A stretch of 44,680 bases of DNA from an uncultured Bacteroidaceae bacterium (lineage in GTDB: Bacteria > Bacteroidota > Bacteroidia > Bacteroidales > Bacteroidaceae): positions 1 through 44,680 of the forward strand of contig CAJOEI010000014.1 in assembly GCA_905233465.1 (NCBI GenBank). The letters run 5' to 3'. The stretch's first letter is position 1. Each line of letters begins with the position of its first letter. Positions 7,275 through 33,089 of the stretch are shown here, piece after piece. The notes beneath the pieces were generated by a model, which saw only the letters and a list, made by a program, of their open reading frames with translations, ran no database searches and had not been told where the DNA came from. A program made the translations under genes and the position numbers.

Positions 7275-7358
7275 GTTTATAGTTTAAAGTTTAAGGTTTA
7301 ATGTTTCAGTTTTAAAGTTTCAAGTTCCAATTTTCAATTTTCAATTTTCAACTTTCAA
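7275..7358 (-). repeat. Heptanucleotide tract between acd and fucO (12 units)
   Basis: Twelve consecutive 7-nt units without a slip, consensus TTGAAAM drifting to TTTAAAC and ending TATAAAC next to the fucO ATG. The first unit contains the TGA stop of the acyl-CoA synthetase (AAT TGA, 7357-7355). The tract fills the stop-to-start spacer. Confidence 0.9.
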
Positions 7359-9445
7359 TTCTCTATGAGTATGCGTGCATCGACGGCCACGATGTCGTCA
7401 CCATCTGCCAGCAGGGGATTGATGTCCATCTCCTTGATTTCGGTTGCGAAGCGGAGCAGGGTGGAAAGGCGCACGATGATGTCGACGTATTTCTGTTCGT
7501 TGATGCCAGCCTGCCCGCGAGTGCCTTGAAGGATTTTATAACCGCGCAGCGAGTGTATCATGGAGTAGGCCTCGCCGTAGCTGAGCGGTGCCAAGCCGGA
7601 GCGTACGTCCTTCAGCACTTCGACGAAGATACCCCCGAGGCCGCACAGCACCACATGGCCGAAACGCTCCTCATATTTGGCTCCAATAAACAGTTCAGTT
7701 CCGCCAAGCATCTTCTGCACCATGACACCTGTGGCACCATCTATCTGCATCATGCGCTGGAACTCCAGCGTGAGGTGTTCGGGCGTTCGTATGTTGAGTG
7801 CTACGCCTCCGACGTCGCTCTTGTGGATAGGTCCCACGACCTTAGCCACGACGGGGTAGCCTATACGCTCTGCAAAGGCCACGAGTGCATCCTTGTCGTC
7901 AGAGACCATCTCGGGCACCATAGGTATGCCGGCACATGAGAGGATTTCACGCACAGTCTGTGGCGGCAAATAGCCATTTCTGTCAATGGTAGAGATGACC
8001 TTGTGCAGTCGGGGTATGTCGATGCCGTAGAGCTGCACCTCGGGCGGTGCGGGCTGCGGCGTGTGCATAATTTGCGAGAGTGCCGTGGCCAACGTCACCT
8101 CGTCTGAGAAATTGACGTGCCCTTTCTGCAGAAACTCTGCCACCTCGGGGCCTGCAGTGTGCTGGCTGGGCAGTACGGGGAATATAGGCTTGCGGCACGA
8201 GAGGATCTTCTGGTGCAAGGTTTCGTAGGCCTCGTAGAGCGTTGTCAGACCAGGTGTGCCATAGATGACGGCGATGGCGTCGACGTTGTCAAACTTGTTT
8301 TCGCAATAGTCTATGGCCATGCCAAGCTGCTGAGCACCTCCCGTGGCCAGGATGTCGATGGGGTTGGATACGGCGGAACCGGGCAAGAGTTTCTCCTTCA
8401 ACTCCTCGGCCAGCGGCCCCTCTATCTTCGGCACATTCAGTCCGCCTTTTGAGAGGGCATCGGTGAGCATCACTCCAGGCCCCCCGGCATGTGTGACGAT
8501 GGCGATGTTGAGAGTTGAGAGCTGAAAATTGAAAGTTGAAAGTTTATAGTGGGCCGTCACCATGAATATGCATCCTGCCGTGGTCAGCTCCTCGCGGCTA
8601 AAGCATCGCACTATGCCGGCCTTTCGGAACAGCGCCTCCACGGCAGCGTCGCTGCTGGCTATGGCCCCTGTGTGGCTCGATGCTGCGCGGCTGCCGCTCT
8701 CGCTGGAACCTGCCTTGATGGCGGCTATGCGACAACCTTTGCGGATGAGCGAACTGGCGTGGAAGAGCAGCTTGTCGGGGTTAGCGATGTTCTCGATATA
8801 AAGTAGCTTGACGTGTGAATCGGTTTCTGCATTAAAATGCTCGTCCATGTATTGCAGCACGTCCTCGATGCCTATCTGCTTGCCGTTGCCGATCGACCAT
8901 ACGCTGTTGAACTGCAAGCCTTTAATGACCGCGCTCTCGAGGATGAACACCGCAGTGGCGCCTGAGCCGCTGATGAAATCTACACCTTTGGGGTTCAGCG
9001 TCGGGATGGGTTTGGTGAACACCGAGTGGTGGTGGCGTGTGAGCAGTCCGATGCAGTTGGGCCCGATGAGTGAGGCACCGAATTCGGCGCAGGTGTCGAG
9101 GATGCGCTGTTCCATCTCGGCACCTGCCTGTGTCTCCTCGCCGAAACCCGCGGAGATGATGATAAAGGCCTTGGTGCCTTTCTCGCTCGCAAGTATCTGG
9201 ACTGTGTCGGGGCACAGTTTGGCGGGTATGACGAGGATGGCCAGTTCTGTTGGCGGTAGCTCGCGGACATCATGAAACACCTTGATGCCCTGCACCTCAT
9301 CCTCCTTGGGATTCACCACGCGCATGGTGCCCTGGTAGCCTCCTTGCAAGATGTTGCGCACGACGGCACCACCAGGCTTGTGGATGTTGTTGGAGCCACC
9401 GATGACGACGATGCTTTGTGGATATAGTAGTTCGCGATTTATCAT
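7355..9445 (-). CDS. ADP-forming acyl-CoA synthetase, fused alpha-beta type
   Basis: A cytoplasmic enzyme of the acetate/acyl-CoA ligase (ADP-forming) family, which converts acyl-CoA, ADP and phosphate into the free acid, CoA and ATP. Order of parts: CoA-binding Rossmann domain (SIVVIGGSN near the start); ligase/flavodoxin-like domain with the catalytic histidine in AASSHTGA; second flavodoxin-like domain (AIVTHAGGPGVM); C-terminal ATP-grasp subunit (PVVAKVVGPIHKSDVGG). I take the ATG at 9445 (696 residues), 2 nt after the upstream stop, because alignable sequence begins there (MINRELLYPQSIVVIGG); the frame is open to 9505. Residues encoded by 8508-8549 (YKLSTFNFQLSTLN) are an in-frame heptad tract in the linker before the second flavodoxin domain. 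The stop codon also comes from a heptad tract. With FucO it could link sugar fermentation to substrate-level ATP. Confidence 0.88.
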   Translation of the reverse strand: MINRELLYPQSIVVIGGSNNIHKPGGAVVRNILQGGYQGTMRVVNPKEDEVQGIKVFHDVRELPPTELAILVIPAKLCPDTVQILASEKGTKAFIIISAGFGEETQAGAEMEQRILDTCAEFGASLIGPNCIGLLTRHHHSVFTKPIPTLNPKGVDFISGSGATAVFILESAVIKGLQFNSVWSIGNGKQIGIEDVLQYMDEHFNAETDSHVKLLYIENIANPDKLLFHASSLIRKGCRIAAIKAGSSESGSRAASSHTGAIASSDAAVEALFRKAGIVRCFSREELTTAGCIFMVTAHYKLSTFNFQLSTLNIAIVTHAGGPGVMLTDALSKGGLNVPKIEGPLAEELKEKLLPGSAVSNPIDILATGGAQQLGMAIDYCENKFDNVDAIAVIYGTPGLTTLYEAYETLHQKILSCRKPIFPVLPSQHTAGPEVAEFLQKGHVNFSDEVTLATALSQIMHTPQPAPPEVQLYGIDIPRLHKVISTIDRNGYLPPQTVREILSCAGIPMVPEMVSDDKDALVAFAERIGYPVVAKVVGPIHKSDVGGVALNIRTPEHLTLEFQRMMQIDGATGVMVQKMLGGTELFIGAKYEERFGHVVLCGLGGIFVEVLKDVRSGLAPLSYGEAYSMIHSLRGYKILQGTRGQAGINEQKYVDIIVRLSTLLRFATEIKEMDINPLLADGDDIVAVDARILIEN
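8508..8549. repeat. Heptad tract inside the acyl-CoA synthetase gene (6 units, 42 bp)
   Basis: Six 7-nt units, TTGARAR-like on the plus strand and YTTTCAA in the gene's sense. Forty-two bases are exactly 14 codons, so the frame is kept. The encoded peptide carries LSTFNFQ, the heptapeptide that a pure CTTTCAA repeat gives in every frame. Confidence 0.9.
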
Positions 9446-9447
9446 AT

Positions 9448-10980
9448 CTAAAAACTGATTTGCTGCTGCTCGTATGGTTGCAGGGCTGGCACGGAGATAG
9501 TCCATTCCTGTCCATTGCTGTCTGTGATGGTCATCTGCTGCGGTGTGGATGTAGTAAGTCCGAAGTTACCTACATCGACATATCGCTTGCCGTCTTTCTC
9601 GACTGGTGCGGAAGCAGAAAGCACGGCGGGCTGGTAGTTGATGTATGGCAGTTTGGCATAGCCCCATAGTAGTTTGCCCTGCTTGGTGCGTCCGATGAGC
9701 TTGGGGGCCCACTCTTGTTCGTCAATGCCACAGCCTTTGGCCGCGAAGGTAACAATGAGGTCGTTGCCTTCGACGCGTGTTCTCACAGCTCGTGCTCCAC
9801 GTCCGAAGTTCACTTCCTTGTAACTCCCGAAGATTAGGCTCTTTACGTCGACCTCGTCGGTTGGCGTGAAGTCCTTTTCGCCTTTGATGCGCAGTTCTAT
9901 CGTCTTGGTCTTGTGATTGATGGGATTTCGGTTAAGCACTTCAAGCAGCAACCCTTTGTTCATGGCGATGCAGATGTTCTTCGAGCTGTGTGTGTCGTTG
10001 GGTTGGTCTTCGTTCTTGAGGGTGTCTATAACGGCGAAGTTCATTTGCAGCACTCGTCCATGCTGGTCTTGAAAGACTTTTGGGCGTTCGTATTTGAACC
10101 ATGGCTCGGTGGTGCCGTCGGCATGTCGCGAAAACGCGTATGTATATGCTTCACCAGGTTCCACTATCCAGTGTAGTCCGTCTAATGAGCGTTGGTACCA
10201 TGCGATGCGTCCCAGCCAGTCGTTGACGACAAGGTGGTACTGCAGTTCATCTTTCCACACCACGGGATCTTCGAATTCGCCCTGCACTGGCGGGTAGATG
10301 CGCTGTGAGGTTATCTGCTGCCACCTCTGTAGACCGTCGCGACTTATCCACACGCCTCCGCCTCGGCACACCATGAGTCTGGAACCGTCGTCTCTGCGGC
10401 AAAATGTGAGATTACTCAGCCCTTCGATAATTTTGTATCCTCGTGGATCGAACTGGAATCGTCCGAACATCCACGGTCCTTGTGGATTGTTGGCTATGTA
10501 GTAGCCGTCAATGGTGTACACGACGATGCGACCGTCGTCGAGCATATATGCTTCAGGGTTGTGCCCCTTGCCAATACTGTTTTGAATCTTGTACGGTCCG
10601 CTGAGGTTGGTGCTGGTGGCATGAAAGACTGTGGAGTTGGCCCAGAACATGTGTCCCCGAGGGCTGTTCTCCGGCCATCCGCAGACATACATGTGATATA
10701 GTCCGTCGTTATGCTGCAGAATGTTGCCTCCCCAGAAGCTGATGCTGTCGTTCTCGATGCCATTGTCGATGTAGCGCATACGCACACTTTCTGTTCCCCA
10801 GTTAGCTCTCGACAGACGACTTTGTGGCATTGTGGTGAAGCGGTCCATGTGTCGTCCGCCGACAACGAGTTTTTCCCATTCTGCGGGTCGCGGTCGCTCT
10901 TGCACCTGTGCAGCAACTGGGCTGGTTCGGAGGCATGAAAACAAAAATGCAAACGAAAAAAGTAAATTATTAGTGGACAA
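9448..10980 (-). CDS. Secreted five-bladed beta-propeller glycoside hydrolase (GH43/GH117-like)
   Basis: A 510-residue protein with a signal-peptide-like N-terminus (LLFSFAFLFSC..SPVAAQ). Short repeated blade sequences follow: WGGNILQHNDGLYHMYVCG; FWANSTVFHATSTNLSGPY; GHNPEAYMLDDGRIVVY; GEFEDPVVWKDELQYHLVVND; and WFKYERPKVFQDQHGRVLQM. The acidic residues in GHNPEAY, EFEDPVVW and YERPKVF are where GH43-clan enzymes keep catalytic and modulating carboxylates. The exact family is uncertain. The only usable start is a TTG at 10980, which lies inside a heptad tract; no ATG occurs in frame until past the signal peptide. It is the first gene of the acd-fucO operon, so its sugar product may feed that pathway. 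Confidence 0.78.
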   Translation of the reverse strand: MSTNNLLFSFAFLFSCLRTSPVAAQVQERPRPAEWEKLVVGGRHMDRFTTMPQSRLSRANWGTESVRMRYIDNGIENDSISFWGGNILQHNDGLYHMYVCGWPENSPRGHMFWANSTVFHATSTNLSGPYKIQNSIGKGHNPEAYMLDDGRIVVYTIDGYYIANNPQGPWMFGRFQFDPRGYKIIEGLSNLTFCRRDDGSRLMVCRGGGVWISRDGLQRWQQITSQRIYPPVQGEFEDPVVWKDELQYHLVVNDWLGRIAWYQRSLDGLHWIVEPGEAYTYAFSRHADGTTEPWFKYERPKVFQDQHGRVLQMNFAVIDTLKNEDQPNDTHSSKNICIAMNKGLLLEVLNRNPINHKTKTIELRIKGEKDFTPTDEVDVKSLIFGSYKEVNFGRGARAVRTRVEGNDLIVTFAAKGCGIDEQEWAPKLIGRTKQGKLLWGYAKLPYINYQPAVLSASAPVEKDGKRYVDVGNFGLTTSTPQQMTITDSNGQEWTISVPALQPYEQQQISF

Positions 10981-11010
10981 CGGTAAATGGTAAATGATAA
11001 ATAGCTAATG
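10976..11010. repeat. Heptad tract at the start of the beta-propeller gene (5 units)
   Basis: Five 7-nt units on the plus strand, core GTAAATG. The unit at 10976-10982 contains the reverse complement of the TTG used as start. The tract lies in the presumed 5' leader, between the -7 box and the start. Confidence 0.7.
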
Positions 11011-11111: not shown

Positions 11112-11117
11112 TTTGTG

Positions 11118-11692: not shown

Positions 11693-13873
11693 TTGGACCT
11701 CTCTACCCCCATAACCTATTTGCCTGGCGTGGGGCCCGCACGCGCCAAATTGTTGAACGACGAACTGCACATCCGTACGTTCGACGACCTGCTGCATTAT
11801 TTCCCATACAAGCATATCGACCGCTCACGGCTGTACTATATTCACGAGCTGACGGCCGACATGCCATTTGTGCAGGTGCGAGGCGAGATACTGAGCTACG
11901 AGGAGAGCGGTGAGGGTCGCAAACGTCGCTTGATAGCACACTTCACCGACGGACAGAGCATCATCGACCTGGTGTGGTTTCATCCTGCCACTTTCGGATG
12001 GATACGCCGCAGCTATCCTGTGGGCAAACTCTTCATAGCCTTTGGCCGTCCAAATGTCTTTGGCCATCGACTGAACATAGCACATCCCGACCTTGATCCC
12101 GCCGAGATGTTACAACTGGGTAAGATGGGGCTGCAGCCATACTACCACACCACGGATCGCATGAAGCGTGCCGGCCTCAACAGCCGTGCCATAGAGAGGC
12201 TGACGAGGACGCTGCTGAGCCCCCATCCTGCCTCCCCCAAGGGGGAGGAGAATGGACAATTGACCGCTCGGCCCGAAGGGACGCTTTCCTCAGAAAAAAT
12301 GAACAATGGTCAATGGCCAAAGGACTATCTTCCACAATGGTTGATAGAGCGGCTATCGCTTATGCCATTAGGTCAGTCGCTACGTGCATTGCATTATCCC
12401 GAGAGCGCCGACGAACTGCGTCGCGCCACCTATCGCCAGAAGTTCGAAGAACTACTCTTCATCCAACTTAACATACTTCGGCTGACGCGCACGCGCCAGC
12501 AGGTGGTGCACGGACGGATATTCAATCGTGTGGGACCGGTGTTCAACGACTTCTACCACAATCACTTGCCCTTCATGCTGACCAATGCCCAGAAACGTGT
12601 CATACGCCAGATGCATGCAGACATGTGCTCCGGCCATCAGATGAACCGCCTGCTGCAGGGCGACGTGGGTTCTGGCAAGACGCTGGTGGCCCTGATGACG
12701 ATGCTGATAGCGGTGGACAACGGCTGTCAGGCTTGCCTGATGGCTCCGACCGAGATTCTGGCCGAGCAGCATTATGCCACGTTCCGCGACATGCTCAGCG
12801 GTGTGGATGTGCGGGTGGAGCTGCTCACGGGTGCCGTGAAAGGCAAGCGCCGCCGCACTCCAATCCTCGAGGGCACACAATCGGGGCAGGTGAATATTCT
12901 CATCGGCACGCACGCTGTATTGGAGGAGAATGTGGCTTTCGCCCAACTGGGGCTGGTGGTTATCGATGAGCAACATCGCTTTGGCGTAGCACAGCGTGCA
13001 CGCCTGTGGCAGAAGAACGACACGCCGCCTCATGTGCTCGTGATGACGGCAACGCCCATACCCCGCACGCTGGCCATGACACTCTACGGCGACCTCGACG
13101 TGAGCATCATCGACGAACTGCCGCCGGGTCGCAAGCCCATCGCCACGCGGCATCTGTGGCAAGAGCAGAAGGAAACACTCTATCGCGGAGTGGCGGCCGA
13201 GATAGCCTGCGGCAGACAGGTGTATGTCGTCTACCCGCTCATCAAAGAAAGCGAAAAGATTGACCTGCAGGACTTAGAAGCGGGCTACGAAGAGTGGTGC
13301 AACAGGTTTCCCGAGTTACGCATCGCCTGTGTGCACGGCCGCATGACGAGTCAGGAAAAGGAACGGCAGATGTCCGGCTTTGTCAGCGGTGAGACACAAA
13401 TCCTGGTTGCCACAACGGTCATCGAGGTCGGGGTCAATGTGCCTAATGCATCGGTGATGGTCATACAGAATGCCGAGCGCTTCGGCTTGGCACAGCTGCA
13501 TCAGCTGCGCGGGCGTGTGGGCAGAGGTGCCGAACAGAGCTATTGCATCCTTGTGACAAAATACGAACTGGCAAAGGAAACACGCCAACGCATCGACATC
13601 ATGTGCCAGACCAATGATGGTTTCGAAATTGCAGAAGCCGACCTGCGACTGCGCGGCCCTGGCGACATCGAAGGCACACAACAAAGTGGCACTGCCTTTG
13701 ACCTTCACATAGCTAACATCGCACGCGACGGACAGCTGGTGCAGCTGGCACGTGACACCGCCAACGAAATTCTTGATGCCGACCCCAACCAAAACCTGCC
13801 ACAGAACGCAATGATGTGGCAACACCTCGCAAGTCTGGGCAAAGAGGCAATTGACTGGAGTAATATTTCATAA
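11693..13873 (+). CDS. recG: ATP-dependent DNA helicase RecG
   Basis: The 726-residue RecG remodels stalled replication forks and branched DNA. Present are the N-terminal PGVGPARAKLL helix-hairpin-helix, the wedge/OB domain, Walker A GDVGSGKT (323-330), APTEILAEQH, the DEQH box (425-428), TATPIPRT and the QLHQLRGRVGRG motif. A TTG at 11693 is the only start that keeps the N-terminal domain, 6 nt after the cupin stop. The unusual part is residues about 177-210 (nt 12219-12320), a low-complexity stretch between the wedge and helicase domains. It corresponds to a G/C palindrome plus short heptad runs inserted in frame, and would account for a protein about 30 residues longer than I expect for this group. 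Confidence 0.95.
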   Translation: MDLSTPITYLPGVGPARAKLLNDELHIRTFDDLLHYFPYKHIDRSRLYYIHELTADMPFVQVRGEILSYEESGEGRKRRLIAHFTDGQSIIDLVWFHPATFGWIRRSYPVGKLFIAFGRPNVFGHRLNIAHPDLDPAEMLQLGKMGLQPYYHTTDRMKRAGLNSRAIERLTRTLLSPHPASPKGEENGQLTARPEGTLSSEKMNNGQWPKDYLPQWLIERLSLMPLGQSLRALHYPESADELRRATYRQKFEELLFIQLNILRLTRTRQQVVHGRIFNRVGPVFNDFYHNHLPFMLTNAQKRVIRQMHADMCSGHQMNRLLQGDVGSGKTLVALMTMLIAVDNGCQACLMAPTEILAEQHYATFRDMLSGVDVRVELLTGAVKGKRRRTPILEGTQSGQVNILIGTHAVLEENVAFAQLGLVVIDEQHRFGVAQRARLWQKNDTPPHVLVMTATPIPRTLAMTLYGDLDVSIIDELPPGRKPIATRHLWQEQKETLYRGVAAEIACGRQVYVVYPLIKESEKIDLQDLEAGYEEWCNRFPELRIACVHGRMTSQEKERQMSGFVSGETQILVATTVIEVGVNVPNASVMVIQNAERFGLAQLHQLRGRVGRGAEQSYCILVTKYELAKETRQRIDIMCQTNDGFEIAEADLRLRGPGDIEGTQQSGTAFDLHIANIARDGQLVQLARDTANEILDADPNQNLPQNAMMWQHLASLGKEAIDWSNIS
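12231..12319. repeat. Composite palindrome + heptad element inside recG
   Basis: CCTCCCCCAAGGGGGAGG (12231-12248) is followed by two 7-nt units (12251-12264, AATKGAC) and, after a spacer, three more (12299-12319, ATGGTCA type). Similar palindrome-plus-heptad combinations occur at 13894-13950 and 31348-31430. The frame of recG stays open through it. Confidence 0.7.
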
Positions 13874-13893: not shown

Positions 13894-13950
13894 CCCCTCC
13901 CCAAGGGAGGGGAGAAGGAAAGGAAGGAGAATGTAAAATGTGAAATGGAG
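13894..13950. repeat. Composite palindrome + heptad element after recG
   Basis: A CCCCTCCC/GGGAGGGG palindrome with CAA centre (13894-13912), then three 7-nt units (AATGTRA-like, 13930-13950). The flank GAGCCCATCC upstream of the palindrome is nearly the same as that upstream of the recG copy. The palindrome could also help end recG transcription, but no T-tract follows. Confidence 0.6.
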
Positions 13951-14216: not shown

Positions 14217-14908
14217 AGAGTTGAGACAAGAGCTTCGGCTACTATGACATCGAAGGGAGTAGTGAGCTTGATGTTCTCACGATTGCCTTCAACAAGACCT
14301 ATGTTTTGCCCCGCTGCCTCCACCACGCTGGCATCGTCGGTGAAGGTGTCGCGATAGGGTTGGCGGTATGCCAACCTAAGCAACTCAATGTCAAAGACCT
14401 GCGGTGTCTGCACGAGGCAGTAGCGTGAACGGTCGCGTGTGACGGAGCGACCGAGCCCTTCGGCTGGCTCGGGCAAGAGTTCGCGCAGAGTCTCCACCAC
14501 GGGCACCACTGGCACTACGGCCTGCTGTGTGCGTGCCGCCTCATAGCAACGCCGTATCACATCCACACTCACAAAGGGTCGCACGCCATCGTGCACACCA
14601 ACATATCCGGCCTCGGCGGTGATGGCTCGCAGGCCGTTGCTGACGCTGTGGAAACGCGTCTCCCCGCCAGTAACAACGGTGTGCTGTAGGGTGAAAGCAT
14701 GTGCACGACACAACTCATCCCAGGTCTGCAGCTGTGCCGCGGGCAATACCACCACCAATCCGATGTCAGGAATGGCGCGGCGGAAAACCTCCAATGTATG
14801 CATCAGCACGGGGCGACCGCCCAGCAGCATGAACTGCTTGGGCGTGTCGCCTCCCATGCGTGTGCCGCGTCCGCCGGCAACGATGATGGCAAAGTTATCG
14901 CACTTCAT
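14213..14908 (-). CDS. ispD: 2-C-methyl-D-erythritol 4-phosphate cytidylyltransferase
   Basis: The third-step enzyme of the non-mevalonate isoprenoid pathway, joining CTP and methylerythritol phosphate. It has the nucleotidyltransferase P-loop-like AGGRGTRMGG near the N-terminus, PKQF, GVHDGVRPFV and TPQVFD, and ends with the expected TDDASVVEAAG and NIKLTTPFD segments. I use the ATG at 14908 (MKCDNFAIIVAGG, 231 residues) rather than the open frame to 14941. That start overlaps the end of the upstream DJ-1 gene by 14 nt, indicating coupled translation. It converges on the 38-codon ORF. Confidence 0.95.
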   Translation of the reverse strand: MKCDNFAIIVAGGRGTRMGGDTPKQFMLLGGRPVLMHTLEVFRRAIPDIGLVVVLPAAQLQTWDELCRAHAFTLQHTVVTGGETRFHSVSNGLRAITAEAGYVGVHDGVRPFVSVDVIRRCYEAARTQQAVVPVVPVVETLRELLPEPAEGLGRSVTRDRSRYCLVQTPQVFDIELLRLAYRQPYRDTFTDDASVVEAAGQNIGLVEGNRENIKLTTPFDVIVAEALVSTL

Positions 14909-15446: not shown

Positions 15447-15471
15447 AGTTTTGGGCACGGCCTGCGGCCGT

Positions 15472-15499
15472 AGTTGAAAGTTTAATGTTTAATGTTTAA
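15472..15499. repeat. Heptad tract between the CotH-like and DJ-1 genes (4 units)
   Basis: Four 7-nt units on the plus strand (AGTTGAA then TGTTTAA type), immediately 3' of the CotH-like stop codon (15504-15502). Confidence 0.75.
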
Positions 15500-15501
15500 A
15501 G

Positions 15502-16893
15502 TTATTTTAGGTATTTCTTGCCTTTTCTTACGTACACACCCCTACGTAACTCAGATATTGATGAAGGACTCGTGAGACGGAAGCCGTTTAGTGTGTATAT
15601 AGCATCATGCGTCTGTGGCATGCCGGACAGCTCCGCTGCCACGACATCGTCCGTCATCATAGCTTGATGGAGCCACGCCTCATGCTGCCTTAGCCAGCTA
15701 ATGGCATCGTTGATGTTGTCATCCACAGAGGAACTGACATAGTTCCATCGCTCAAACTCGTAGGGGCGCGAAGCTTGCAGGCTGAGGGCTGTGGGCGAGG
15801 TGCGGAAGTCCTCGAGATAACCTATCAGGTCGTCAAACAGATGCGGTCCGATTTCTTGCCAAAGGCGACGGTATTCATCAAGGAAACCAGTATTGACATT
15901 ATTGGTTAATACCTTGAAATAGAAGAATGTATCATTGTGCGCACGCGACCATTCGTCTGTGGAGAGTTTCATTATGGAATCGAAATCCCATAGCGTTGAC
16001 ATTGAGACGAGCGTGGTGTCGCTGTCATCGTACTTGGTGATGAATATGTTCGACCCGGCACCGTCCTTGCTGCCAAGGATGTCGTGTGCGAGGAGCCATC
16101 GGGCAAATGAGCGCACGTCGATGCATGACATATATGTGCCGTCCGTGATGGCGTTCTCAACATATTTCACAACACTGGCAATATATGTCAGCTGCGGAAC
16201 GACGACATCTTTGTCATCGGGATATTTGAACGTGAAGTACTTGCCATCTGGTGTACGCAGATACCTGTCCTCGTTCCACCAATATGGGTCACACTCCAGG
16301 ATGAAGCCACTTTTGGCTACGTTAATGCGGCATCGCGGATTCCGTCTGATGGTCTCGGTGAGCATGTATATCCCACGGTAGTCGCCATTGAAGAAGACGT
16401 TCACATACTCATAAGCGGGCGTATATGCCATGCCGATAAGCTGGTTGACCTTGTTGCCAATCATGGTCTTGAGGGAACTGTTGCCGTCACGTATGAGTGC
16501 CCAGTGCCTGTCATCATAGCGATGGTCACCTCTTGAGAGCATGTCAGAGGCTTTCTCCAGCCTTATCTTGAAAGGCTTTTTGTCGGAATAAGCACTGGTG
16601 TTGCCCCGAATCTTGATGGTCATTCCGCTGATGCCATCAGCATAACGTCCGCTGTCATACAACGTGTCGCCAAGATGGACGATATATACCCTGCCAGGAA
16701 CTTTTGTGGCATTGTTTATACTTTTGCCAAAAGCTCCTTCGGGAGGATAGACATAGTCACAAGTAGGTTCCTCGCCGCCCACCGTCTCTATGAACAATGT
16801 CGGCAGTCCGAGGGAGATTATCATGTCTGCGCTGAAGCTCGCATGACATGAGAAAGAGACGACAAGCAATGCTATGGTCGCGAATAGTCTCAT
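15502..16893 (-). CDS. Secreted CotH-kinase-family protein
   Basis: A 463-residue protein with a signal peptide (MRLFATIALLVVSFSCHA). The CotH-kinase-like domain carries RGNTSAYSDKKPFKIRLEK, NKVNQLIGMAYTPAYEYVNV, YRGIYMLTETI and LAHDILGSKDGAGSNIFI, with a WDFDS motif. CotH proteins of spore coats are atypical protein kinases; in Bacteroidales the fold is common in secreted proteins of unknown substrate. The C-terminus (IYTLNGFRLTS, then GVYVRKGKKYLK) is the Prevotella-type sorting tail also seen on the GH51 enzyme. It starts 9 nt after pdxJ, so it is probably in that operon. Confidence 0.85.
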   Translation of the reverse strand: MRLFATIALLVVSFSCHASFSADMIISLGLPTLFIETVGGEEPTCDYVYPPEGAFGKSINNATKVPGRVYIVHLGDTLYDSGRYADGISGMTIKIRGNTSAYSDKKPFKIRLEKASDMLSRGDHRYDDRHWALIRDGNSSLKTMIGNKVNQLIGMAYTPAYEYVNVFFNGDYRGIYMLTETIRRNPRCRINVAKSGFILECDPYWWNEDRYLRTPDGKYFTFKYPDDKDVVVPQLTYIASVVKYVENAITDGTYMSCIDVRSFARWLLAHDILGSKDGAGSNIFITKYDDSDTTLVSMSTLWDFDSIMKLSTDEWSRAHNDTFFYFKVLTNNVNTGFLDEYRRLWQEIGPHLFDDLIGYLEDFRTSPTALSLQASRPYEFERWNYVSSSVDDNINDAISWLRQHEAWLHQAMMTDDVVAAELSGMPQTHDAIYTLNGFRLTSPSSISELRRGVYVRKGKKYLK

Positions 16894-17669: not shown

Positions 17670-17704
17670 AGTTTATTGTTTAATGTTTAGCTCTCAAAGT
17701 TTGA
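17670..17704. repeat. Heptad tract in the pdxJ/nadK divergent promoter region (5 units)
   Basis: Five 7-nt units, WGTTTAW with one CTCTCAA. The last unit (AGTTTGA) carries a TTTG at 17700-17703, 21 nt before the nadK -7 box, which is the consensus -33 spacing. Confidence 0.75.
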
Positions 17705-17757: not shown

Positions 17758-18642
17758 ATGTCAAGGCTTCGTTTTGCCCTTTTCGGCAACATCTATCAGG
17801 CCAAGAAGGCCGCTGCCGTGCAGCAGATACTGGATTTGCTGCAGCAGCGTGGCGTGGATCTGGCGTTAGATGAGAAGTTCTTGCACTTCGTGCGCGACGA
17901 CCTTCACATCCGTGTTCCCGATGGCGTAAGCACCATTGACGGCGATGACTTTGTGGCAGATGTGGCACTTAGTGTAGGTGGCGACGGCACATTTCTGGAG
18001 ACGGCACGCCGCGTGGGAGCCAAGCCCATGCCAATACTTGGTGTGAACATAGGGAGGATGGGATTCCTTGCCGACTTCACGCCAGCAGAGCTTGCCGATG
18101 CACTCGATGCTATCCTTTGCGGCGACTTCCAGACCGAAGAACGCTGTGTGCTGCAACTTGAGTATGACCACGGTTCGCCAGAAGGCTATCCCTATGCGCT
18201 GAACGAGGTGGCTGTGCTCAAACGTGACGTCTCAGCCATGCTGAGCATACAGGTGAGCATCAACGGTGAATACCTGACAACATATCAGGCCGACGGTATC
18301 ATCATCAACACGCCAACAGGCTCCACAGGCTATGCTCTGAGCGTTGGCGGACCTATTATGCAACCCGGCAGCCACACAATGGGCCTTGTGGCCGTGGCGC
18401 CACATTCACTCACAGTGAGGCCCGTGACACTCACAGATGATGCCGTCATATCCTTGCGGGTGAAGTCACGCAACCATCAGTTCCTCGTCTCTCTCGATGG
18501 ACGCAGTGAGAAGTGCTATGAGGACGTATGCCTCACCATACGGCGCGCACCATATTATATTAAGGTGCTGAAGCGTCCGGGCCAAACCTTCTTCCACACC
18601 TTGCGACACAAGCTGATGTGGGGACAGGACGTGAGGAATTGA
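17758..18642 (+). CDS. nadK: NAD kinase
   Basis: Phosphorylates NAD to NADP with ATP or polyphosphate in the cytosol. The product is 294 residues from the ATG at 17758 (MSRLRFALFGN), chosen because it follows the promoter; the frame itself is open from 17683. GGDGT (residues 74-78) and NTPTGSTGYALSVGGPI are diagnostic, with LNEVAV and the APHSLTVRP segment. The TGA stop lies within the first unit of a heptad tract (TTGACAG), and the next gene starts where that tract ends, so the pair is probably co-transcribed with translation passing across the repeat. Confidence 0.96.
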   Translation: MSRLRFALFGNIYQAKKAAAVQQILDLLQQRGVDLALDEKFLHFVRDDLHIRVPDGVSTIDGDDFVADVALSVGGDGTFLETARRVGAKPMPILGVNIGRMGFLADFTPAELADALDAILCGDFQTEERCVLQLEYDHGSPEGYPYALNEVAVLKRDVSAMLSIQVSINGEYLTTYQADGIIINTPTGSTGYALSVGGPIMQPGSHTMGLVAVAPHSLTVRPVTLTDDAVISLRVKSRNHQFLVSLDGRSEKCYEDVCLTIRRAPYYIKVLKRPGQTFFHTLRHKLMWGQDVRN

Positions 18643-18666
18643 CAGTTGAAAAATGAAAGTTGAAAG
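18639..18666. repeat. Heptad tract between nadK and the ABC exporter (4 units)
   Basis: TTGACAG, TTGAAAA, ATGAAAG and TTGAAAG, followed in register by TTGCTTA. The nadK TGA is in the first unit and the exporter's TTG start is the first three bases after the last unit. Confidence 0.85.
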
Positions 18667-20382
18667 TTGCTTATCGATTCTAAATATAGTACACGTGAGC
18701 TGCTGACCTGGTTTGGACACATCCTGTGGTCAGTGCGCTTGCAGTCGTTCATCAACATGATGAGCGGTGTGGTGCGTGTGGCGTTGGACTTCGCATTCAT
18801 CTGGGCTACCAAGCAAGCCATCGACATTGCCACACACAGTTCACAGCCAGTGGCCAGTGACCAGCTTTCAACATTCAGTTTCCATCTAACAACTCTATCC
18901 GAAGCAGGCATACTGCTTGTTGTCATCATGCTCCTGCAGATGTCACTGGGTTATGCAGGCCGCTGGATAGCTGCCTTGTTGGGTGTAGAGGCACAAAACC
19001 GCATGCAGCGTCGCCTCTTTGAGCATCTGCTGCGCAGCGAATGGCGAGGCCGTGAGGTGCGACACAGCGGCGACGTGCTCAACCGCCTTGTCAGCGACAA
19101 CACCACCGTGGTCAGCGTGATGACCGACACGCTGCCGCAGGCTCTAGCGGTGACGGTACGCCTCATAGCGGCATTCTTCTTCCTCTATTCGATGGACGCT
19201 ATGCTGGCAGTGGGAGTGACGCTGATACTACCCATCTTCATCCTCCTGAGCAGGTTGTATATTAATCGTATGCGTGCCCTCACACGCGAGGTGCGACGCA
19301 CAGACAGCCAGATACAGTCAACACTGCAAGAGGGAATACAGCACAGGTTAGTGCTAAAGACGCTGGAGCGCATGCCCACTATGGCAGATGTACTTGCCAA
19401 GCAGCAAGCTAATTTGCGAATGCTGGTGCGTCGCCGCACTGTGTTCTCGTCAACATCAAACCTCGTGCTGAACATGGGTTTCGGCAGTGCATATCTGCTG
19501 ACTTTCCTGTGGAGCGTCTACCGCCTGAGCGACGACACCATCACCTTCGGCATGATGACTGCCTTCATCCAGCTATGCGGACAGATACAAGGTCCGTTCC
19601 GTGAGCTCACACGTTTCATCCCCACCATCATAGGCAGCTTCACTGCAGCAGAACGACTGATTGAGCTGGAAGAAGTACCAGAAGAAGCCGACGGTCAGCC
19701 GCTGCGCTTCACCTCAGAGGCTGGCATACGCGTCACAGACGTAAGCTACGCCTATGATGCCAACAGCCGCCTTGTGCTCGAACACCTTAACATAGACTTT
19801 GCGCCAGGCACCAGCACAGCCGTGCTGGGTGAGACAGGTGCCGGCAAGACAACGCTCATACGCCTCATCCTGGCGCTGCTGCACCCCGACAGCGGCCATG
19901 TGGAGATTTATGATGCCGGCCACAGCATGGAAGTCAGCGCACGCACACGCTGCAACCTCGTCTATGTGCCTCAGGGCAACTCACTCTTCAGCGGCACAGT
20001 GCGATGGAATCTGCTAATGGGCAAGCCCGACGCTACCGACGAAGAGCTACATCAGGCTCTGCAGGTTGCCTGCGCCGACTTCATCCAACAGTTGCCACAG
20101 GGTTTGGACACATACGTGGGAGAAGGTGGGGCAGGACTCTCAGAAGGTCAGGCACAGCGCATTGCTATAGCTCGCGCGCTGCTGCGACAAGGCAATATCC
20201 TGCTTCTTGACGAAGCCACGAGTGCGCTGGATCAACAAACAGAACACCGCCTGATAGACAACCTCCTACAGCACAATGACCGACTCGCTGTGAAGCCAAC
20301 ACTCATCTTCATCACACACAGGCCCGCAGTGGTTGACAAGTGTACACAGGTGATAACGCTCAAGAAGCATGGCATTCATTAG
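18667..20382 (+). CDS. ABC exporter, fused membrane and ATPase domains
   Basis: A 571-residue half-transporter: membrane domain with about six helices (30-320), then an ATPase domain with Walker A GETGAGKT (388-395), Q-loop PQGNSLFSG, signature LSEGQ (491-495), Walker B ILLLDE (511-516) and switch histidine in FITHRP. The substrate cannot be told; the closest general class is lipid/drug/peptide exporters. TTG at 18667 is the only start: an in-frame TGA lies 4 nt upstream at 18661-18663, and the next Met would delete helix 1. Residues about 61-77 (VASDQLSTFSFHLTTLSE) are encoded by an in-frame heptad tract, in the external loop between helices 1 and 2. The peptide resembles the insert in the acyl-CoA synthetase. 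Confidence 0.9.
   Translation: MLIDSKYSTRELLTWFGHILWSVRLQSFINMMSGVVRVALDFAFIWATKQAIDIATHSSQPVASDQLSTFSFHLTTLSEAGILLVVIMLLQMSLGYAGRWIAALLGVEAQNRMQRRLFEHLLRSEWRGREVRHSGDVLNRLVSDNTTVVSVMTDTLPQALAVTVRLIAAFFFLYSMDAMLAVGVTLILPIFILLSRLYINRMRALTREVRRTDSQIQSTLQEGIQHRLVLKTLERMPTMADVLAKQQANLRMLVRRRTVFSSTSNLVLNMGFGSAYLLTFLWSVYRLSDDTITFGMMTAFIQLCGQIQGPFRELTRFIPTIIGSFTAAERLIELEEVPEEADGQPLRFTSEAGIRVTDVSYAYDANSRLVLEHLNIDFAPGTSTAVLGETGAGKTTLIRLILALLHPDSGHVEIYDAGHSMEVSARTRCNLVYVPQGNSLFSGTVRWNLLMGKPDATDEELHQALQVACADFIQQLPQGLDTYVGEGGAGLSEGQAQRIAIARALLRQGNILLLDEATSALDQQTEHRLIDNLLQHNDRLAVKPTLIFITHRPAVVDKCTQVITLKKHGIH
18849..18897. repeat. Heptad tract inside the ABC exporter gene (7 units)
   Basis: Seven 7-nt units in a row, each beginning CA (CAGTGGC, CAGTGAC, CAGCTTT, CAACATT and so on). 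It is degenerate but in strict register and in the open (CAA, not TTGA) orientation relative to the gene. Confidence 0.75.
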
Positions 20383-25264: not shown

Positions 25265-25720
25265 TCATTGCTCGTCGTCGTCCATATCAAAGTCGAAATC
25301 GGCAAAGAACATCGGAGCGTCCACAGCCTCGTCGCGAAAGTCGTCGAGGGCACGGCGCTCCTTTTTCGTGGGTCGTCCTGTGCCGCGGGCACGACCGATA
25401 AAACCGCTTATACGGTTGATTTCCAGCAGTTCCAACTGCTCGGGCGCTGTAACATTCTCGAGAATCTCAGGCAATAGACGCGCCCCCACGCGGCGTTCTA
25501 TGGCTTGAAGGATGCGAAAGCTATACGTCACAGGCGGCTTGCGCACATCAATGATGTCGCCAGCCTTGACGCTGCGCGATGGCTTCAGCGGCACGCCGCC
25601 GAGGCTAATTTGCCCCTTCTTGCACGCCGCAGCAGCCATAGTGCGCGTCTTGTAGATGCGTGCTGCCCACAGCCATTTGTCAATGCGGGCAACAGTCCCG
25701 CCGTTTCCGTTCTCGTTCAA
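25265..25720 (-). CDS. S4-domain RNA-binding protein (HslR/RqcP type)
   Basis: A 151-residue protein with an N-terminal S4 domain (ARIDKWLWAARIYKTRTMA, then ACKKGQISLGG), as in Hsp15 and RqcP, which bind stalled 50S subunits with peptidyl-tRNA. The C-terminal tail is basic, then Asp-rich (DFDFDMDDDEQ). The only start is a TTG at 25720-25718: a TGA lies two codons upstream and no ATG or GTG precedes the S4 core. That TTG is inside a heptad unit. It is the last gene of the rplY-pth-S4 operon, and Pth and RqcP-like proteins both act on stalled peptidyl-tRNA, so the grouping makes functional sense. Confidence 0.88.
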   Translation of the reverse strand: MNENGNGGTVARIDKWLWAARIYKTRTMAAAACKKGQISLGGVPLKPSRSVKAGDIIDVRKPPVTYSFRILQAIERRVGARLLPEILENVTAPEQLELLEINRISGFIGRARGTGRPTKKERRALDDFRDEAVDAPMFFADFDFDMDDDEQ

Positions 25721-25778
25721 TGTTCAATAGTCAATGGTCAACCTCCAATGATCAATGGTCAATGCTCAATGTTCAACG
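25716..25778. repeat. Heptad tract joining pth and the S4 gene (9 units)
   Basis: Nine 7-nt units without slips, GTCAATG type on the plus strand (TTGACCA in the operon's sense). The unit at 25765-25771 holds the pth TGA stop and the unit at 25716-25722 holds the TTG start of the S4 gene, so the tract overlaps both coding ends. Confidence 0.9.
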
Positions 25779-26410: not shown

Positions 26411-26494
26411 AATTCCCAATTTTGTAATGTGAATTGTCAATAGTGAATTCTCAATTGTCAGTTGTCAGTCGTGAATTTTCAACTTTCAACTTTC
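26411..26494. repeat. Heptad tract between rplY and pth (12 units)
   Basis: Twelve units of 7 nt in one register (AATTGTC, AATTCTC and AACTTTC types on the plus strand), ending 7 nt from the rplY stop. As at 7275-7358 the total is 84 bp. Confidence 0.85.
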
Positions 26495-26501
26495 AACTGC
26501 A

Positions 26502-27177: not shown

Positions 27178-27260
27178 AATTGTCAATTTCAATTTTCAAT
27201 TCTCAATTGTCCATTGTCCATTGTGAATTGTGAATTGTCCATTGTCCATTTTCAATTCTC
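27178..27260. repeat. Heptad tract in the rplY leader (12 units)
   Basis: Twelve units in register except for one 6-nt unit at 27185-27190: AATTGTC, CATTGTC, CATTGTG and AATTCTC types on the plus strand. It lies between the rplY -7 box and the rplY start, hence in the transcribed leader. The rest of 27105-27445 holds the two divergent promoters and no gene. Confidence 0.88.
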
Positions 27261-30400: not shown

Positions 30401-31474
30401 TCCCCGCAGACCGACCCCACGCTGGCCACGATACGTACCCGCGGCAACCAGACACAGAACATCACCCTGCACGCGCGCATCTCCGCTACCCAAACCGTGA
30501 GCAAGCAGCTCACCGTGGAGCCCAACGGCACATATCTCATCACGTTAGACAACAATCAGCTCGGAGCACAGCGGCAGGACGACGAGCCATCAGAGGACAA
30601 CGTGTGGCGCGACATCACCTCACGCTACCTGCAGAACCCGGGCTTCGAACTCGACCAGACATGGGGCACCACAGGCAACATCACCCTGGGCGGAGTGACC
30701 TACAACCCTTGCTACACACAGAGCGTGGCAGCTGCCTCGGCCGACTTCCCACAGGTGCTGCCCGTTCAAGGCTGGACGGCAGAGAACACCCTCGGCACGG
30801 CATCCAAATTTGCCGTGATGTATTCCATGCCATACAGCGAGACACAGTATTGCGTCTCGCCATCCAATATCGGCAACAGCGCCAGCATCATGAGCTTCCC
30901 CGCACGCTATGCCGACATCGCCGCAGAGCGCTGCCTGAGCATCCTCAACTCATGGACATCAGGCAAGAACGCCATCTCCCAGCGAGCCACACTGCCCAAG
31001 GGACAGTACCGCGCCAAGATGCTTGTGCAGTACGTCTGCCCCAACGAGAACGGGCGCCCTTCCGTCGACGTCATAAACACCTCCGGCGGCAATGTCAACA
31101 CCTCGCTCTGTGGCGTAGCCTACGGCAGCAACACATCCTATGCCTATCCATCAGCAGCCAACACATGGGAGGAACTCGTCATCCCTTTTGATCTGTCCGA
31201 GACAACGGAAGTCACCTTCCGTCTCGGACTACAGACCTCGCAGGCACAAGGTGCTGCCAACAACACCCGCCTCTATGTCGACGCCCTCCGCCTGCTGGCC
31301 AACAAAGACACCACAGTCGGCATCAAGGAGCTCAATGAACAAGAACTGTCCCCCTTGGGGGACCACAGTGGGCTTGTCTACAACCTCGCCGGACAAATTG
31401 TAAATCGTAAATCGTCAAATCGTAAATTACCATGCGGTATCTACATCATTGGCAAGCATAAGGTTGTAAAATAG
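27446..31474 (+). CDS. Large secreted protein, probably glycan-active, catalytic family not recognised
   Basis: A 1342-residue protein. Parts: signal peptide (TTLLMAAIAAVAQ); a jelly-roll, CBM-like domain at about 20-210 opening with STYLMNPSFEAD; an alpha-helical region at about 225-640 with an aromatic/histidine cluster (LQNHNYFHTSYQNVVMQELG near 487, GEAHLAMLL, ENGWEADVLACALGLYPDD, SDIGPRRMGVEGHRVMM); a beta-rich region at about 660-1040 as in the beta-sandwich of polysaccharide lyases; a second jelly-roll at about 1055-1300 starting SRYLQNPGFELD, echoing the first; and a C-terminal sorting tail ending GIYIIGKHKVVK. The helical barrel plus beta-sandwich order resembles PL8- or PL21-type lyases or heparinase-like enzymes; this is inference. 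The tail contains a C5-TT-G5 palindrome and a CGTAAAT tract in frame. Confidence 0.75.
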   Translation: MRTTMLTTLLMAAIAAVAQNDVTSTYLMNPSFEADAAACTDGVRVSEGSEGLRGWNVASITAWQTTRPSKQLLITADCSTDNGFGKTQIADGTYALFQREGWNNSSSSITQTTTAAVPKGKYQLTAAYKAFYANSATSSAKLSVKQGSQTLGAATLTFAAGSAGCMSGAWQEATVQFEVTTSATLTIAVNIDWVSGGSQLALDNIHLQTLPDDTPIVDLTPQSGVSEGKITHDFVGEAEMMQDLLQMLANSTRYAKNIWFQCVAPNSEGETCGYFKGNSAGQSNEDGVRTNADFAMICAFLCKYAQGKVGLPAGVSWTDIHHMAKDALVFGYSTHKANKLKVTADNKYWGSTATNDAVWESSLWTMSLAYAAWFLNDELTYAQRARIYNMVKAECNYELNRSIPTGYSGDTKAEENGWEADVLACALGLYPDDTLAPQWFARLREFAINSYSHSSDASNNTVIDPTYDSKTVAQLYKGANLYDDYTLQNHNYFHTSYQNVVMQELGEAHLAMLLFQGSTSPKWQTRALMHNQQQVMDEVLCRLALSDGELAMPNGNDWSMFLYDQITSYSTAACFLRDKNALMLENMAYKYIKARQQTTGDGSWLLRSDIGPRRMGVEGHRVMMTYLMHLQASTANMQPTTWNDFCAQHQQAYVFPAQNIVRTMSNDRFVCFSWSDGLKSYTGYFADNTPDKNKIVIPYKANNTGNLIGWYDVSGKSTNATAEVKGVYALDDNAFTMNGRLKTNDNTLENSFVIAATKGNAVVYMNNVRAASAATVTGRRAGMLAISVDELTATQRTIYSAAGQMTSDGASTQTIASPWANIDNHLGIITLGGTGRMAFGERANSNSIMAAKLYPIYSTGSEAFAAGANIDRSAVIYYSRVSSTETQALQAKAESLVQQLPDGWNAIRFADADGTPYLLAANLGGTGRAHISGLATADGAPVLTEETIIHNGQSEATLILDRDHSLLQPLTLTVSGDAEVIARLISPQTDPTLATIRTRGNQTQNITLHARISATQTVSKQLTVEPNGTYLITLDNNQLGAQRQDDEPSEDNVWRDITSRYLQNPGFELDQTWGTTGNITLGGVTYNPCYTQSVAAASADFPQVLPVQGWTAENTLGTASKFAVMYSMPYSETQYCVSPSNIGNSASIMSFPARYADIAAERCLSILNSWTSGKNAISQRATLPKGQYRAKMLVQYVCPNENGRPSVDVINTSGGNVNTSLCGVAYGSNTSYAYPSAANTWEELVIPFDLSETTEVTFRLGLQTSQAQGAANNTRLYVDALRLLANKDTTVGIKELNEQELSPLGDHSGLVYNLAGQIVNRKSSNRKLPCGIYIIGKHKVVK
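31348..31430. repeat. Composite palindrome + heptad element in the sorting tail of the secreted protein
   Basis: GTCCCCCTTGGGGGAC (31348-31363), then, 32 nt on, CGTAAAT-type units (31396-31430) with one 8-nt unit (31417-31424). Without the extra base the sense frame would reach TAA; with it the frame stays open through VNRKSSNRK. Confidence 0.6.
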
Positions 31475-31521
31475 ACGCACTGCACGCAACAGCACAAGGC
31501 AATTGATAGCAGCCATACATC

Positions 31522-31703: not shown

Positions 31704-31858
31704 GGGTTAGCGGTTGATGATCCAGGAAGTTTGCACTTTAACATCCGGGACTTTCACGTAAATCTTCCAGGATCATTTTCCGCTAACCTCCGGATGTTTT
31801 CGTGCCAACTTGTGGATGTTGTAGTCCTAACCTCTGGATGTTGCTACGCGACCCAAAT
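31704..31858. repeat. Degenerate 22-bp tandem repeat (about 7 units) with internal inverted repeat
   Basis: Unit starts at 31704, 31726, 31748, 31771, 31793, 31815 and 31837; all are 22 nt except one of 23. The consensus is roughly GATGTTTTCGTGCCAACYTC, with later units beginning GATGTT. The first unit (GGTTAGCGG then ATGATCC) is an imperfect inverted copy of the fourth (GGATCAT then CCGCTAACC). It lies in the 530-bp gene-free stretch 31475-32004, the rest of which holds two hairpins. Confidence 0.75.
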
Positions 31859-31980: not shown

Positions 31981-32004
31981 GTTTGAAAGTAGAAAGGTGC
32001 TCTA

Positions 32005-32688: not shown

Positions 32689-32701
32689 AACAGGGAAAAT
32701 G

Positions 32702-32729
32702 AATTGTTAATTATAAATTTTGAATTAAA
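32702..32729. repeat. Short heptad tract before the membrane protein gene (4 units)
   Basis: AATTGTT, AATTATA, AATTTTG and AATTAAA in register; the last unit overlaps the TAA stop (32727-32725) of the DUF2752 gene. Confidence 0.6.
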
Positions 32730-32973
32730 ATAAGTGCAGATTCCTCACCACGCCCCAAGCCACCAATAGACAGAAGAGCACGGCAGCGGCACGCGGCGAA
32801 AGGCCTCCTTGCCACCAGCACCACAGGGCAAGCAACGGGGCACACACGAAGAGAAAGGGATTGAGCCAGAATGCCTCTGCCACATGCCCGTGCAGCAGAG
32901 CGAGCACCATGCGCTGCCCACCACACATGGGGCAATCTAAACCGGTTACAGAATGGAAGAGACAAGGTAGCAT
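32725..32973 (-). CDS. DUF2752 small membrane protein
   Basis: An 82-residue protein with the DUF2752 signature: GLDCPMCGGQRMVLALLHG (the CPxCGxxR motif), then AFWLNPFLFV, and two to three hydrophobic segments. Family function is not established; the paired cysteines could bind metal or form a disulfide. The ATG at 32973 gives the usual family length. A longer overlapping frame ending at 32711 reads as nonsense. It is flanked by heptad tracts on both sides, between the outer-membrane barrel gene and the 227-residue membrane protein gene, all on the minus strand. Confidence 0.85.
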   Translation of the reverse strand: MLPCLFHSVTGLDCPMCGGQRMVLALLHGHVAEAFWLNPFLFVCAPLLALWCWWQGGLSPRAAAVLFCLLVAWGVVRNLHLF

Positions 32974-33019
32974 TTTTTCTCTTTATGCTTATAACATCCC
33001 ACGAGTGACCCAGGAAAAC

Positions 33020-33089
33020 AGTTGAAAGTTGAAAGTTGATAATTGAGAATGCTCAATGGTCAATGGTCAATGGTCAATGCTCAATGGTC
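33020..33089. repeat. Heptad tract with internal orientation switch (10 units)
   Basis: Ten 7-nt units in one register. The first four read TTGA on the plus strand (AGTTGAA type); the next six read TCAA (AATGGTC type), so the tract is roughly palindromic. The TGA stop of the barrel protein gene (33090-33088) is at its right end. Confidence 0.88.

Follow-up and report, generated by a model that had tools for sequence, protein, structure and literature searches.

Seven-nucleotide tandem repeats and a dispersed hairpin-heptad element in the genome of an uncultured Bacteroidaceae bacterium

Introduction

The STRR repeats of cyanobacteria are built of tandem heptanucleotides. Heptanucleotides are reported to outnumber every other class in the majority of genomes (Mrazek 2007, as cited in PMC4679880), and the length of the polymerase contact has been proposed as the cause of the seven-nucleotide step (Mrazek 2007, as cited in PMC4679880 and PMC4692102). 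Described heptamers include TAACTGA of Beggiatoaceae, cyanobacteria, and five Bacteroidetes (PMC4679880), and GGGNATC of Xanthomonas and Nostoc (PMC4692102). Here we analyze a 44,680-nucleotide stretch of DNA (the window) from an uncultured Bacteroidaceae bacterium (contig CAJOEI010000014.1 of assembly GCA_905233465.1), in which an initial annotation made from the letters of the sequence had listed 15 tracts of consecutive 7-nucleotide units (heptads) in 26 kb. We also describe a composite element of the same genome, overlooked in that annotation, in which a GC hairpin precedes heptads.

Dispersed elements that contain tandem or palindromic repeats have been described in several bacteria. The genome of G. 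metallireducens holds 49 copies of an element with four tandem heptanucleotides GGACCGG (PMC2700814). GTAG and CGTC REPs are covered in PMC3733652, where the CGTC REPs are said to have no dedicated RAYT/Y1 transposase. In the Bacteroidales, BrickBuilt of Porphyromonas gingivalis, a miniature inverted-repeat transposable element, has a 23-nucleotide unit and 19 copies, which are always intergenic (PMC4596501). For the genome analyzed here, we assign a probability of roughly 0.55 to the reading that slippage in 7-nucleotide steps makes and resizes the heptad arrays, and that a hairpin-headed subset of them has been copied round the genome as one unit.

Period 7 is the dominant period of tandem repeats

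The source assembly comprises 2.54 Mb in 57 contigs, of which C14 is the window; it is 84.76% complete and has the appearance of a metagenome-assembled genome (MAG). By ribosomal protein L25, its nearest named relatives are MAGs from the rumen or other ruminant gut labelled Bacteroidaceae, Bacteroidales, or Prevotellaceae. Tracts were called by maximal-segment scoring with a lenient cut-off of 9 and a strict cut-off of 14, and the controls were shuffles of 50- or 60-base blocks, not of dinucleotides. The sequence was inspected directly at all 15 of the coordinates listed initially. The lenient cut-off recovered 12 of these tracts and none outside the list, compared with a mean of 0.3 and a maximum of 2 in 20 shuffles of the window; the three tracts below it are 12251-12319, 13930-13950, and 32702-32729. 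Seven tracts passed the strict cut-off, which no shuffle did. Tandem Repeats Finder (TRF), at a score of at least 30, gave 7-nucleotide arrays at the same 12 sites and a two-copy array off the list at 35646-35660 (score 30). The initial statement that the first 7 kb and the last 11 kb are free of tracts holds by segment scoring, but not for this minimal TRF row. Among the other periods from 4 to 13, none produced a strict tract in the window; periods 9 and 12 produced four lenient tracts each, and periods 6 and 10 one each.

The same signal is present in a genome sample of 444,680 bases, made up of the window and twenty 20-kb stretches. In it, 67 segments have period 7, and block shuffles, which were run for eight periods, gave none, the remaining periods serving as a second control. 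Segment counts were 0–4 for 26 of the 40 tested periods. Period 8 gave 19 segments and period 22 gave 12; periods 14, 21, and 28 (31, 18, and 13 segments) are harmonics of period 7, and the remaining 34 periods gave 0–10. In the whole genome, the pattern TTGANNNTTGANNNTTGA has 312 matches and its reversed control 226, the latter count being high because heptads match the reversed pattern too. The 7-nucleotide repeats are genuine, with an excess that is specific to the period and that block shuffles lack for both the window and the sample.

The 532 units counted fall into 73 distinct canonical heptads, led by the classes AAAGTTG, AAACTTT, AAAATTG, AACATTG, and AATTCAC, so that the period is far steadier than the letters, as had been noted from the window. 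In 14 tracts, the identity between units decreases from 0.83 for neighbors to 0.76, 0.71, 0.70, and 0.69 at lags of two to five units. Neighboring units are the most alike, which fits the copying of units from their neighbors. The suggestion that the period itself is under constraint is correct only in part: periods 8, 9, and 10 occur as well and, by our reading, do so also at one and the same junction in other species.

Among the short periods, period 8 ranks second, and octad arrays are located at L010:15308-15405, L006:4339-4414, and L020:9218-9302 (AAATCGTG, AGTTCAAA, and AATAACGT). Tandem repeats of 22 nucleotides that are not built of heptads are present in the window at 730-828 and 31785-31843, and period 22 gave ten segments in genome G018.

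A dispersed element with a hairpin and heptads

The flanks of tracts revealed a GC hairpin that recurs immediately ahead of AGTTKAAAG heptads; in this composite element, the hairpin is followed by AGTTTAAAG heptads. For 14 of the 65 merged tracts of the sample, a GC hairpin is found no more than 35 nucleotides away; the same is true of 244 of 3000 points placed at random in intergenic DNA (p = 0.0008). The consensus of the element is RGAC-ACGRCC-TGC-GGYCGT-AGTTTAAAGTTTAAGGTTTAAAG; alignment A1 omits five of the 38 composites because of irregular heptads or stems (L159:1574, L159:3918, L161:1375, L164:1502, and L173:8165), which favors the consensus. Pattern search identified 16 composites in the sample. 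With up to two mismatches allowed, the pattern CGGCCNNNGGCCGNAGTTKAAAG has 43 strict copies in the source genome and none in the reversed control; a further 15 members of the genus have no copy, and nine genomes belonging to different families in the order have one between them. A covariance model, with which no more than 105 candidates were scored, produced at least 103 matches in the source genome, including weak ones to heptads without a clear hairpin, 56 in G018, 44 in G056, and 22 in G058, with at least one match in 38 of the 61 genomes of the genus that were surveyed, the source genome included. The number of matches per genome correlates with the heptad load (Spearman 0.67, 61 genomes), but the two are not independent because the model contains heptads.

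The two sides of the stem covary. In 13 cells both sides have changed, a measure that the relatedness of copies can inflate; the shuffles average 3.0 ± 1.3, and not one of the 500 reaches 13. Of the cells, 99% pair. Stems of 5 or 6 bp are present in 70 of the 75 elements examined, with loops of 2–4 allowed. In other species, the letters of the stem differ (for example, CGAGC/GCTCG or CGGGC/GCCCG) and the heptads are similar. An identical 30-mer (four heptads, one variant) occurs at seven loci in the DNA of the source genome that was examined, and L159 contains direct arrays of the composite about 59 nucleotides apart. The 43 copies, the shared 30-mer, and the direct arrays point to the dispersal of a unit and not to independent slippage. 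The initial opinion that the pattern is not that of a transposed element is not supported for this subset of the tracts.

It has to be considered whether slippage is purely local, each tract having grown in place from a short seed, with hairpins as unrelated neighbors. Most tracts lack a hairpin and the identity of units drops with distance, as expected from such growth, and a TTGACAATTGAA-like singlet between the L25 and peptidyl-tRNA hydrolase (pth) genes of L028, L034, L039, and L047 could, by our reading, be a seed. However, the fixed order of hairpin and heptads in the 43 strict copies and the recurrent 30-mer refute this explanation for the composite subset, and we consider it unlikely overall.

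Inverted pairs of composites (hairpin-heptads ... heptads'-hairpin'), which are REPIN-like, are found in L177, L188, L106, and L180. A second family of hairpins, CCCCTCCC...GGGAGGGG, often adjoins AATGGAC-type heptads (L008:17839-17965, L018:580-668, and L013 near 16359) and, by our reading, is found again in sister species as inverted copies close to the terminator of L25.

Placement relative to genes

Nine of the 65 merged tracts are positioned within called genes, 45 in intergenic gaps, and 11 at the ends of stretches or in unplaceable positions. In the source genome, a tract is located within 10 nucleotides of the stop codon at 23 of 44 stop edges, compared with 13.3 ± 2.0 upon random placing (500 draws, maximum 20), and tracts at start edges are rarer than random (9 of 46 versus 13.4). 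In four window genes, those that end at 18642, 33088, 25766, and 7355, the stop codon belongs to a heptad. Because seven is not a multiple of three, an array of TTGA heptads places a TGA in each frame; the idea that the arrays are all-frame stop cassettes was rejected, since there are too few cases outside the source genome. The TTGA-sense, antisense, and tied orientations at abutting stops number 12, 9, and 2 in the source genome, 2, 0, and 5 in G018, and 2, 0, and 3 in loci from the genus.

Three of the listed tracts form in-frame inserts in genes, namely those for an acyl-CoA ligase-like protein, RecG, and a 1342-residue open reading frame (ORF). The palindromic elements of Rickettsia, which are named in PMC3733652, are likewise palindromes inserted in frame in genes and are comparable with the RecG insert in this respect; here the heptads are part of the insert. 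By our reading, the GC-rich core of the RecG insert, CCGCTCGGCCCGAAGGGACGC, resembles those that heptads enclose in G018 and at other sites of the source genome. Translations of the Era (L171:534-1514) and GuaA (L165:3925-5556) genes of the source genome contain apparent in-frame inserts encoded by hairpin or heptad DNA; the insert of Era is rich in proline and glycine and its family match is split into two stretches, and that of GuaA reads NCKLSNCK.

A role in promoters was rejected as a general explanation. At the L25 gene, the TAnnTTTG box has a called heptad tract immediately 5' of it in 12 of 36 rows, yet the pooled promoters of the source genome (n = 101) have a lag-7 value of 0.334 compared with 0.296 at lag 6 and 0.300 at lag 8, and those of G023 (n = 14) have no excess. 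The excess is modest, and part of it comes from the tracts themselves and, for the genus set, from the repetition of L25 loci.

The position of the composite was determined in a discovery set of 49 elements, comprising the 19 best of 37 model matches in the sample and 30 pattern matches; by our reading, the other 18 model matches are mostly heptads lacking a hairpin. An ORF starts 0–29 nucleotides from the hairpin in 31 of the 49 elements, most commonly at a distance of exactly 7 nucleotides (8 of 31), and ORFs start on the tract side in 6 of 49. The test of the tract side was slightly stricter, in that ORFs truncated where a stretch ends were excluded. Ten of the downstream genes were assigned using NCBIfam: metK, glyS, aroC, guaA, era, gpmI, gdhA, glyA, an LptF-like permease (below the cut-off), and the DJ-1 family gene of the window. 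A further 20 stretches were chosen among listed model matches. In a second set of 26 elements, starts were found on the hairpin side of nine elements and on the tract side of three, compared with 581 of 2000 random intergenic points, which is no overall excess (p = 0.33). The link of all composites to start codons, strong in the discovery set, was therefore not reproduced and was rejected.

The link held in part, for one subfamily only. The second set is rich in 5-bp stems; the hairpin-side start was found for 6 of 9 elements with 6-bp stems, 2 of 15 with 5-bp stems, and 1 of 2 unclassed. According to gene calls, the nine 6-bp elements of this set have two starts, two stops, and five cases without a gene seen. 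Among all 75 elements, of which 70 could be classed by stem and 60 of these 70 had a gene seen, the hairpin side faces 36 starts and 9 stops for 6-bp stems and 4 starts and 11 stops for 5-bp stems (Fisher p = 0.0003), a split that was made after seeing the data.

These positions raise the alternative that the composite is a cis-acting regulatory leader element, heptads followed by a hairpin, that tunes the translation or mRNA stability of the next gene, a housekeeping one. The predominance of starts on the hairpin side in the discovery set and the split by stem length agree with such a function. So does the junction upstream of the MPVKKR gene, which we take to be gldM, the junction being called gldL-gldM-like: a GC hairpin is located 6–7 nucleotides before the ATG, with different stems, in the source genome, G055, G056, and G057 (4 of 30 loci). 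By contrast, the second set had starts at only 9 of 26 elements, close to the random fraction, and 26 of 30 species have no GC hairpin at this gldL-gldM-like position, which makes a leader function rather improbable. The RNA leaders from the window and from the gldM-like gene of the source genome fold with energies of −11.7 and −11.3 kcal/mol and the hairpin forms, but their z scores (−1.7 and −1.8) are not significantly below shuffles; the leader of G056 folds with −7.0 kcal/mol (z −0.2). A doubtful, speculative possibility is that hairpin-tailed heptads are orientation-coded punctuation, with 6-bp stems about 7 nucleotides before starts and 5-bp stems just after stops, and with stems and heptads rewritten in concert in each species, as though an RNA- or DNA-binding factor that reads them were evolving alongside.

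Variation across the genus

The strict TTGA-heptad pattern has 0 to 451 matches per genome in the 61 genomes of the genus, with a median of 26 and none in eight. The sister G023 has no tandem repeat with a period of 2–30 by segment score in 89,474 bases. Orthologous junctions were compared at three positions. Between the L25 and pth genes, for which 46 loci were supplied, including some whose junction could not be read, the tract of the source genome is missing in L021, which has the most similar L25; other heptads are present in L035, L036, L038, and L041, and octads in L025. In the L25 leader, heptads of differing sequence follow the same TACCTTTG box, presumably a promoter, in the source genome, L027, L041, and L042 (4 of 36 rows). 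At the gldL-gldM-like junction of 30 species, a period-7 tract was called in six, the source genome not being among them at that score. By our reading, this junction contains 9-nucleotide-like repeats in G008, G005, and G013 and 10-nucleotide-like repeats in G042 and G053, with scored support for G013 and G042; no repeat is visible by eye in, for example, G045, G009, G069, and G071.

Junctions of sister species hold different units or none, and the occurrence of different units at one junction supports the initial interpretation. The closest RecG among 100 sister genomes drawn from the larger genus group, that of G002, has 79% identity, so the comparison includes no close strain.

Just 5' of the TACCTTTG box in L021-L065, an AACTTTC-like 7-nucleotide rhythm is, by our reading, kept in many species with changing letters. 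The N-terminus of pth in the same loci varies strongly between species and, by our reading, is seemingly encoded in part by a CCCTCCC hairpin family.

Tracts of the window

The tracts are summarized in Table 1. Rfam models at gathering scores and tRNA searches gave no matches in the window.

Table 1. Heptad tracts of the window, their placement, and the basis of the description.
Position	Strand	Feature	Placement	Basis or comparison
7273..7358		12-unit tract, GTTTAAR to TTTCAAT	fills the junction of two minus-strand genes; stop codon (7355-7357) of gene 7355-9505 in its last unit	
8507..8549	-	heptads inside acyl-CoA ligase-like gene 7355-9505	in-frame insert of ~+10 residues in a linker	Pfam, alignment; absent in 13/13 other aligned proteins shown
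10976..11010		short GTAAATG heptads	divergent gap	script gene calls
12251..12319	+	heptads, GC-rich core, heptads, although below the lenient cut-off	in frame in RecG, length-variable linker, residues ~187-209	direct reading, alignment; same insert in 0/11 sister RecGs shown
13930..13950		three weak units		initial annotation
15453..15503	+	composite element: GGGC, hairpin ACGGCCTGCGGCCGT 15457-15471, heptads AGTTGAAAGTTTAATGTTTAATGTTTAAAGTT 15472-15503	hairpin 10 nt from the ATG of the DJ-1 family gene (14895-15446, minus strand); CotH-kinase gene stop at 15502	
17670..17704		weak GTTTAAT heptads	divergent pdxJ / NAD-kinase gap	
18639..18669	+	TTGAAAG heptads	NAD-kinase stop TGA (18640-18642) within first unit	
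18846..18864		weak heptads	in ABC-transporter ORF	
25715..25778	-	TTCAATG heptads	pth / S4-domain gene gap; pth stop 25766-25768 in tract	
26411..26498	-	heptads	between L25 and pth genes	absent at the L021 junction
27178..27260	-	12-unit tract	presumed L25 5' leader, downstream of the TACCTTTG box	
31395..31430	+	heptads	in frame near C-terminus of 1342-aa ORF	absent in L021, the sole relative compared
32702..32729		four weak AATTNNN units		initial annotation
33020..33091	-	10-unit tract, AGTTGAA then AATGGTC	contains stop of minus-strand gene 33088-33774	

Discussion

The mechanism that we favor, slippage combined with the copying of a unit, has two layers. Units would be gained and lost by slippage in 7-nucleotide steps, as the similarity of neighboring units suggests, and the hairpin-heptad element, which is observed as a family of copies, would move as a unit via some copying route. 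Selection may set where arrays survive, which would be after stop codons and in the linkers of proteins. Tracts that are present, absent, or replaced at orthologous junctions and the in-frame inserts in coding sequences support this reading.

Several results weigh against it. Slippage was not directly seen, the sisters compared having at most 79% identity of RecG. The proximity of GC hairpins to only 14 of 65 tracts means that the composite leaves most tracts unexplained. Further types of base pairs in the stem are not above shuffles (6 versus 5.5; reached in 239 of 500). Period-7 tracts are nearly absent from two of seven panel species (none in 60 kb of G016 and one in 40 kb of G058). The stop edges in G018 (7 versus 3.6 expected) are accompanied by an increase at start edges (4 versus 1.4), and 35 loci from the genus have no excess at stop edges (5 versus 4.2). 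The gene calls were made with a simple custom script. Finally, no mobilizing enzyme was found: neither Y1_Tnp (PF01797) nor RVT_1 has a match in the source genome, which is about 85% complete; the Y1_Tnp search covered 25 genomes.

Candidate drivers were rejected from their distribution between element-rich and element-poor genomes: RVT_1 is present in 4 of 8 rich and 5 of 8 poor genomes, SbcD is above the cut-off in 2 of 8 of each, and a Y-family polymerase is present in 6 of 8 rich and 7 of 8 poor genomes. Mobilization by a RAYT-type transposase or a reverse transcriptase that has since lost its activity, or whose gene lies outside the assembled DNA, would account for the REP-like anatomy and for the tandem and inverted pairs of elements; however, the lack of matches to either enzyme in the genome, and the presence of RVT_1 irrespective of the number of elements, make it very unlikely. 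An artefact of assembly or binning might be suspected, because the source resembles a MAG in 57 contigs with 84.76% completeness, but independent assemblies of named and unnamed members of the genus carry such tracts and the in-frame inserts leave genes open, so that we regard an artefact as extremely improbable.

The repeats share with the heptanucleotide LSSR, STRR, and TAACTGA repeats the predominance of period 7, mostly intergenic positions, and a patchy distribution among species (PMC4679880; PMC4692102), and as in LSSR- and STRR-like repeats, the 7-nucleotide tandems exceed both chance and other periods. TAACTGA repeats, too, provide stops in all frames in one orientation, with some sets overlapping stop codons and some within ORFs (PMC4679880; PMC4692102). 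They differ in having a single fixed unit, which in the Maribeggiatoa genome is mostly positioned just before starts, whereas 73 units, a subset of them with a covarying hairpin, are found here; neither TAACTGA nor a rotation of it is among the 25 commonest. The element of G. metallireducens is similarly dispersed and multicopy, with four heptads, and lies between and within genes, but its sequence is different and the available part of PMC2700814 does not mention a separate hairpin.

The composite is a short palindrome in many dispersed copies and thus resembles REP, BIME, and REPIN elements (PMC3733652; see also PMC3116915), which are short hairpins with dozens of copies occurring as singles, direct arrays, and inverted pairs. 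It differs from them in its heptad tail and in the lack of a RAYT match in the genome, and its stems, of 5 or 6 bp as a rule, are shorter than those of CGTC REPs, which have stems of 8–9 bp and loops of 4–5 (PMC3733652). In REP elements, a GTAG or CGTC (or TGTC, CCTC) tag marks one end of the hairpin. The composite mostly has RGAC at its end away from the heptads, so that the opposite strand reads GTCY following a stem whose last letter is T, and GTAG is found in composites only across the hairpin and the first heptad. BrickBuilt is also a tandem repeat in a dispersed element of the Bacteroidales, with inverted-repeat ends, but it is distinguished from the composite by its longer unit, copy number, and restriction to intergenic positions (PMC4596501).

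The initial annotation knew of no described 7-nucleotide family in the Bacteroidales, and none of this kind was found in the literature searched, which missed most subscription papers; TAACTGA repeats are known from five Bacteroidetes (PMC4679880). The excess of heptanucleotides in bacteria is already known, and the hairpin-tailed form that varies between species appears to be new.

The question of why bacteria favor 7-nucleotide repeats has one proposed answer that we met, the contact length of the polymerase (see PMC4679880 and PMC4692102). It becomes testable in a genus whose heptad load ranges from 0 to 451 matches per genome and whose junctions are readable in 30 species, by comparing rich sisters with empty ones. 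The hairpin-heptad element would add to the known repeats a REP-like family for which no transposase is seen.

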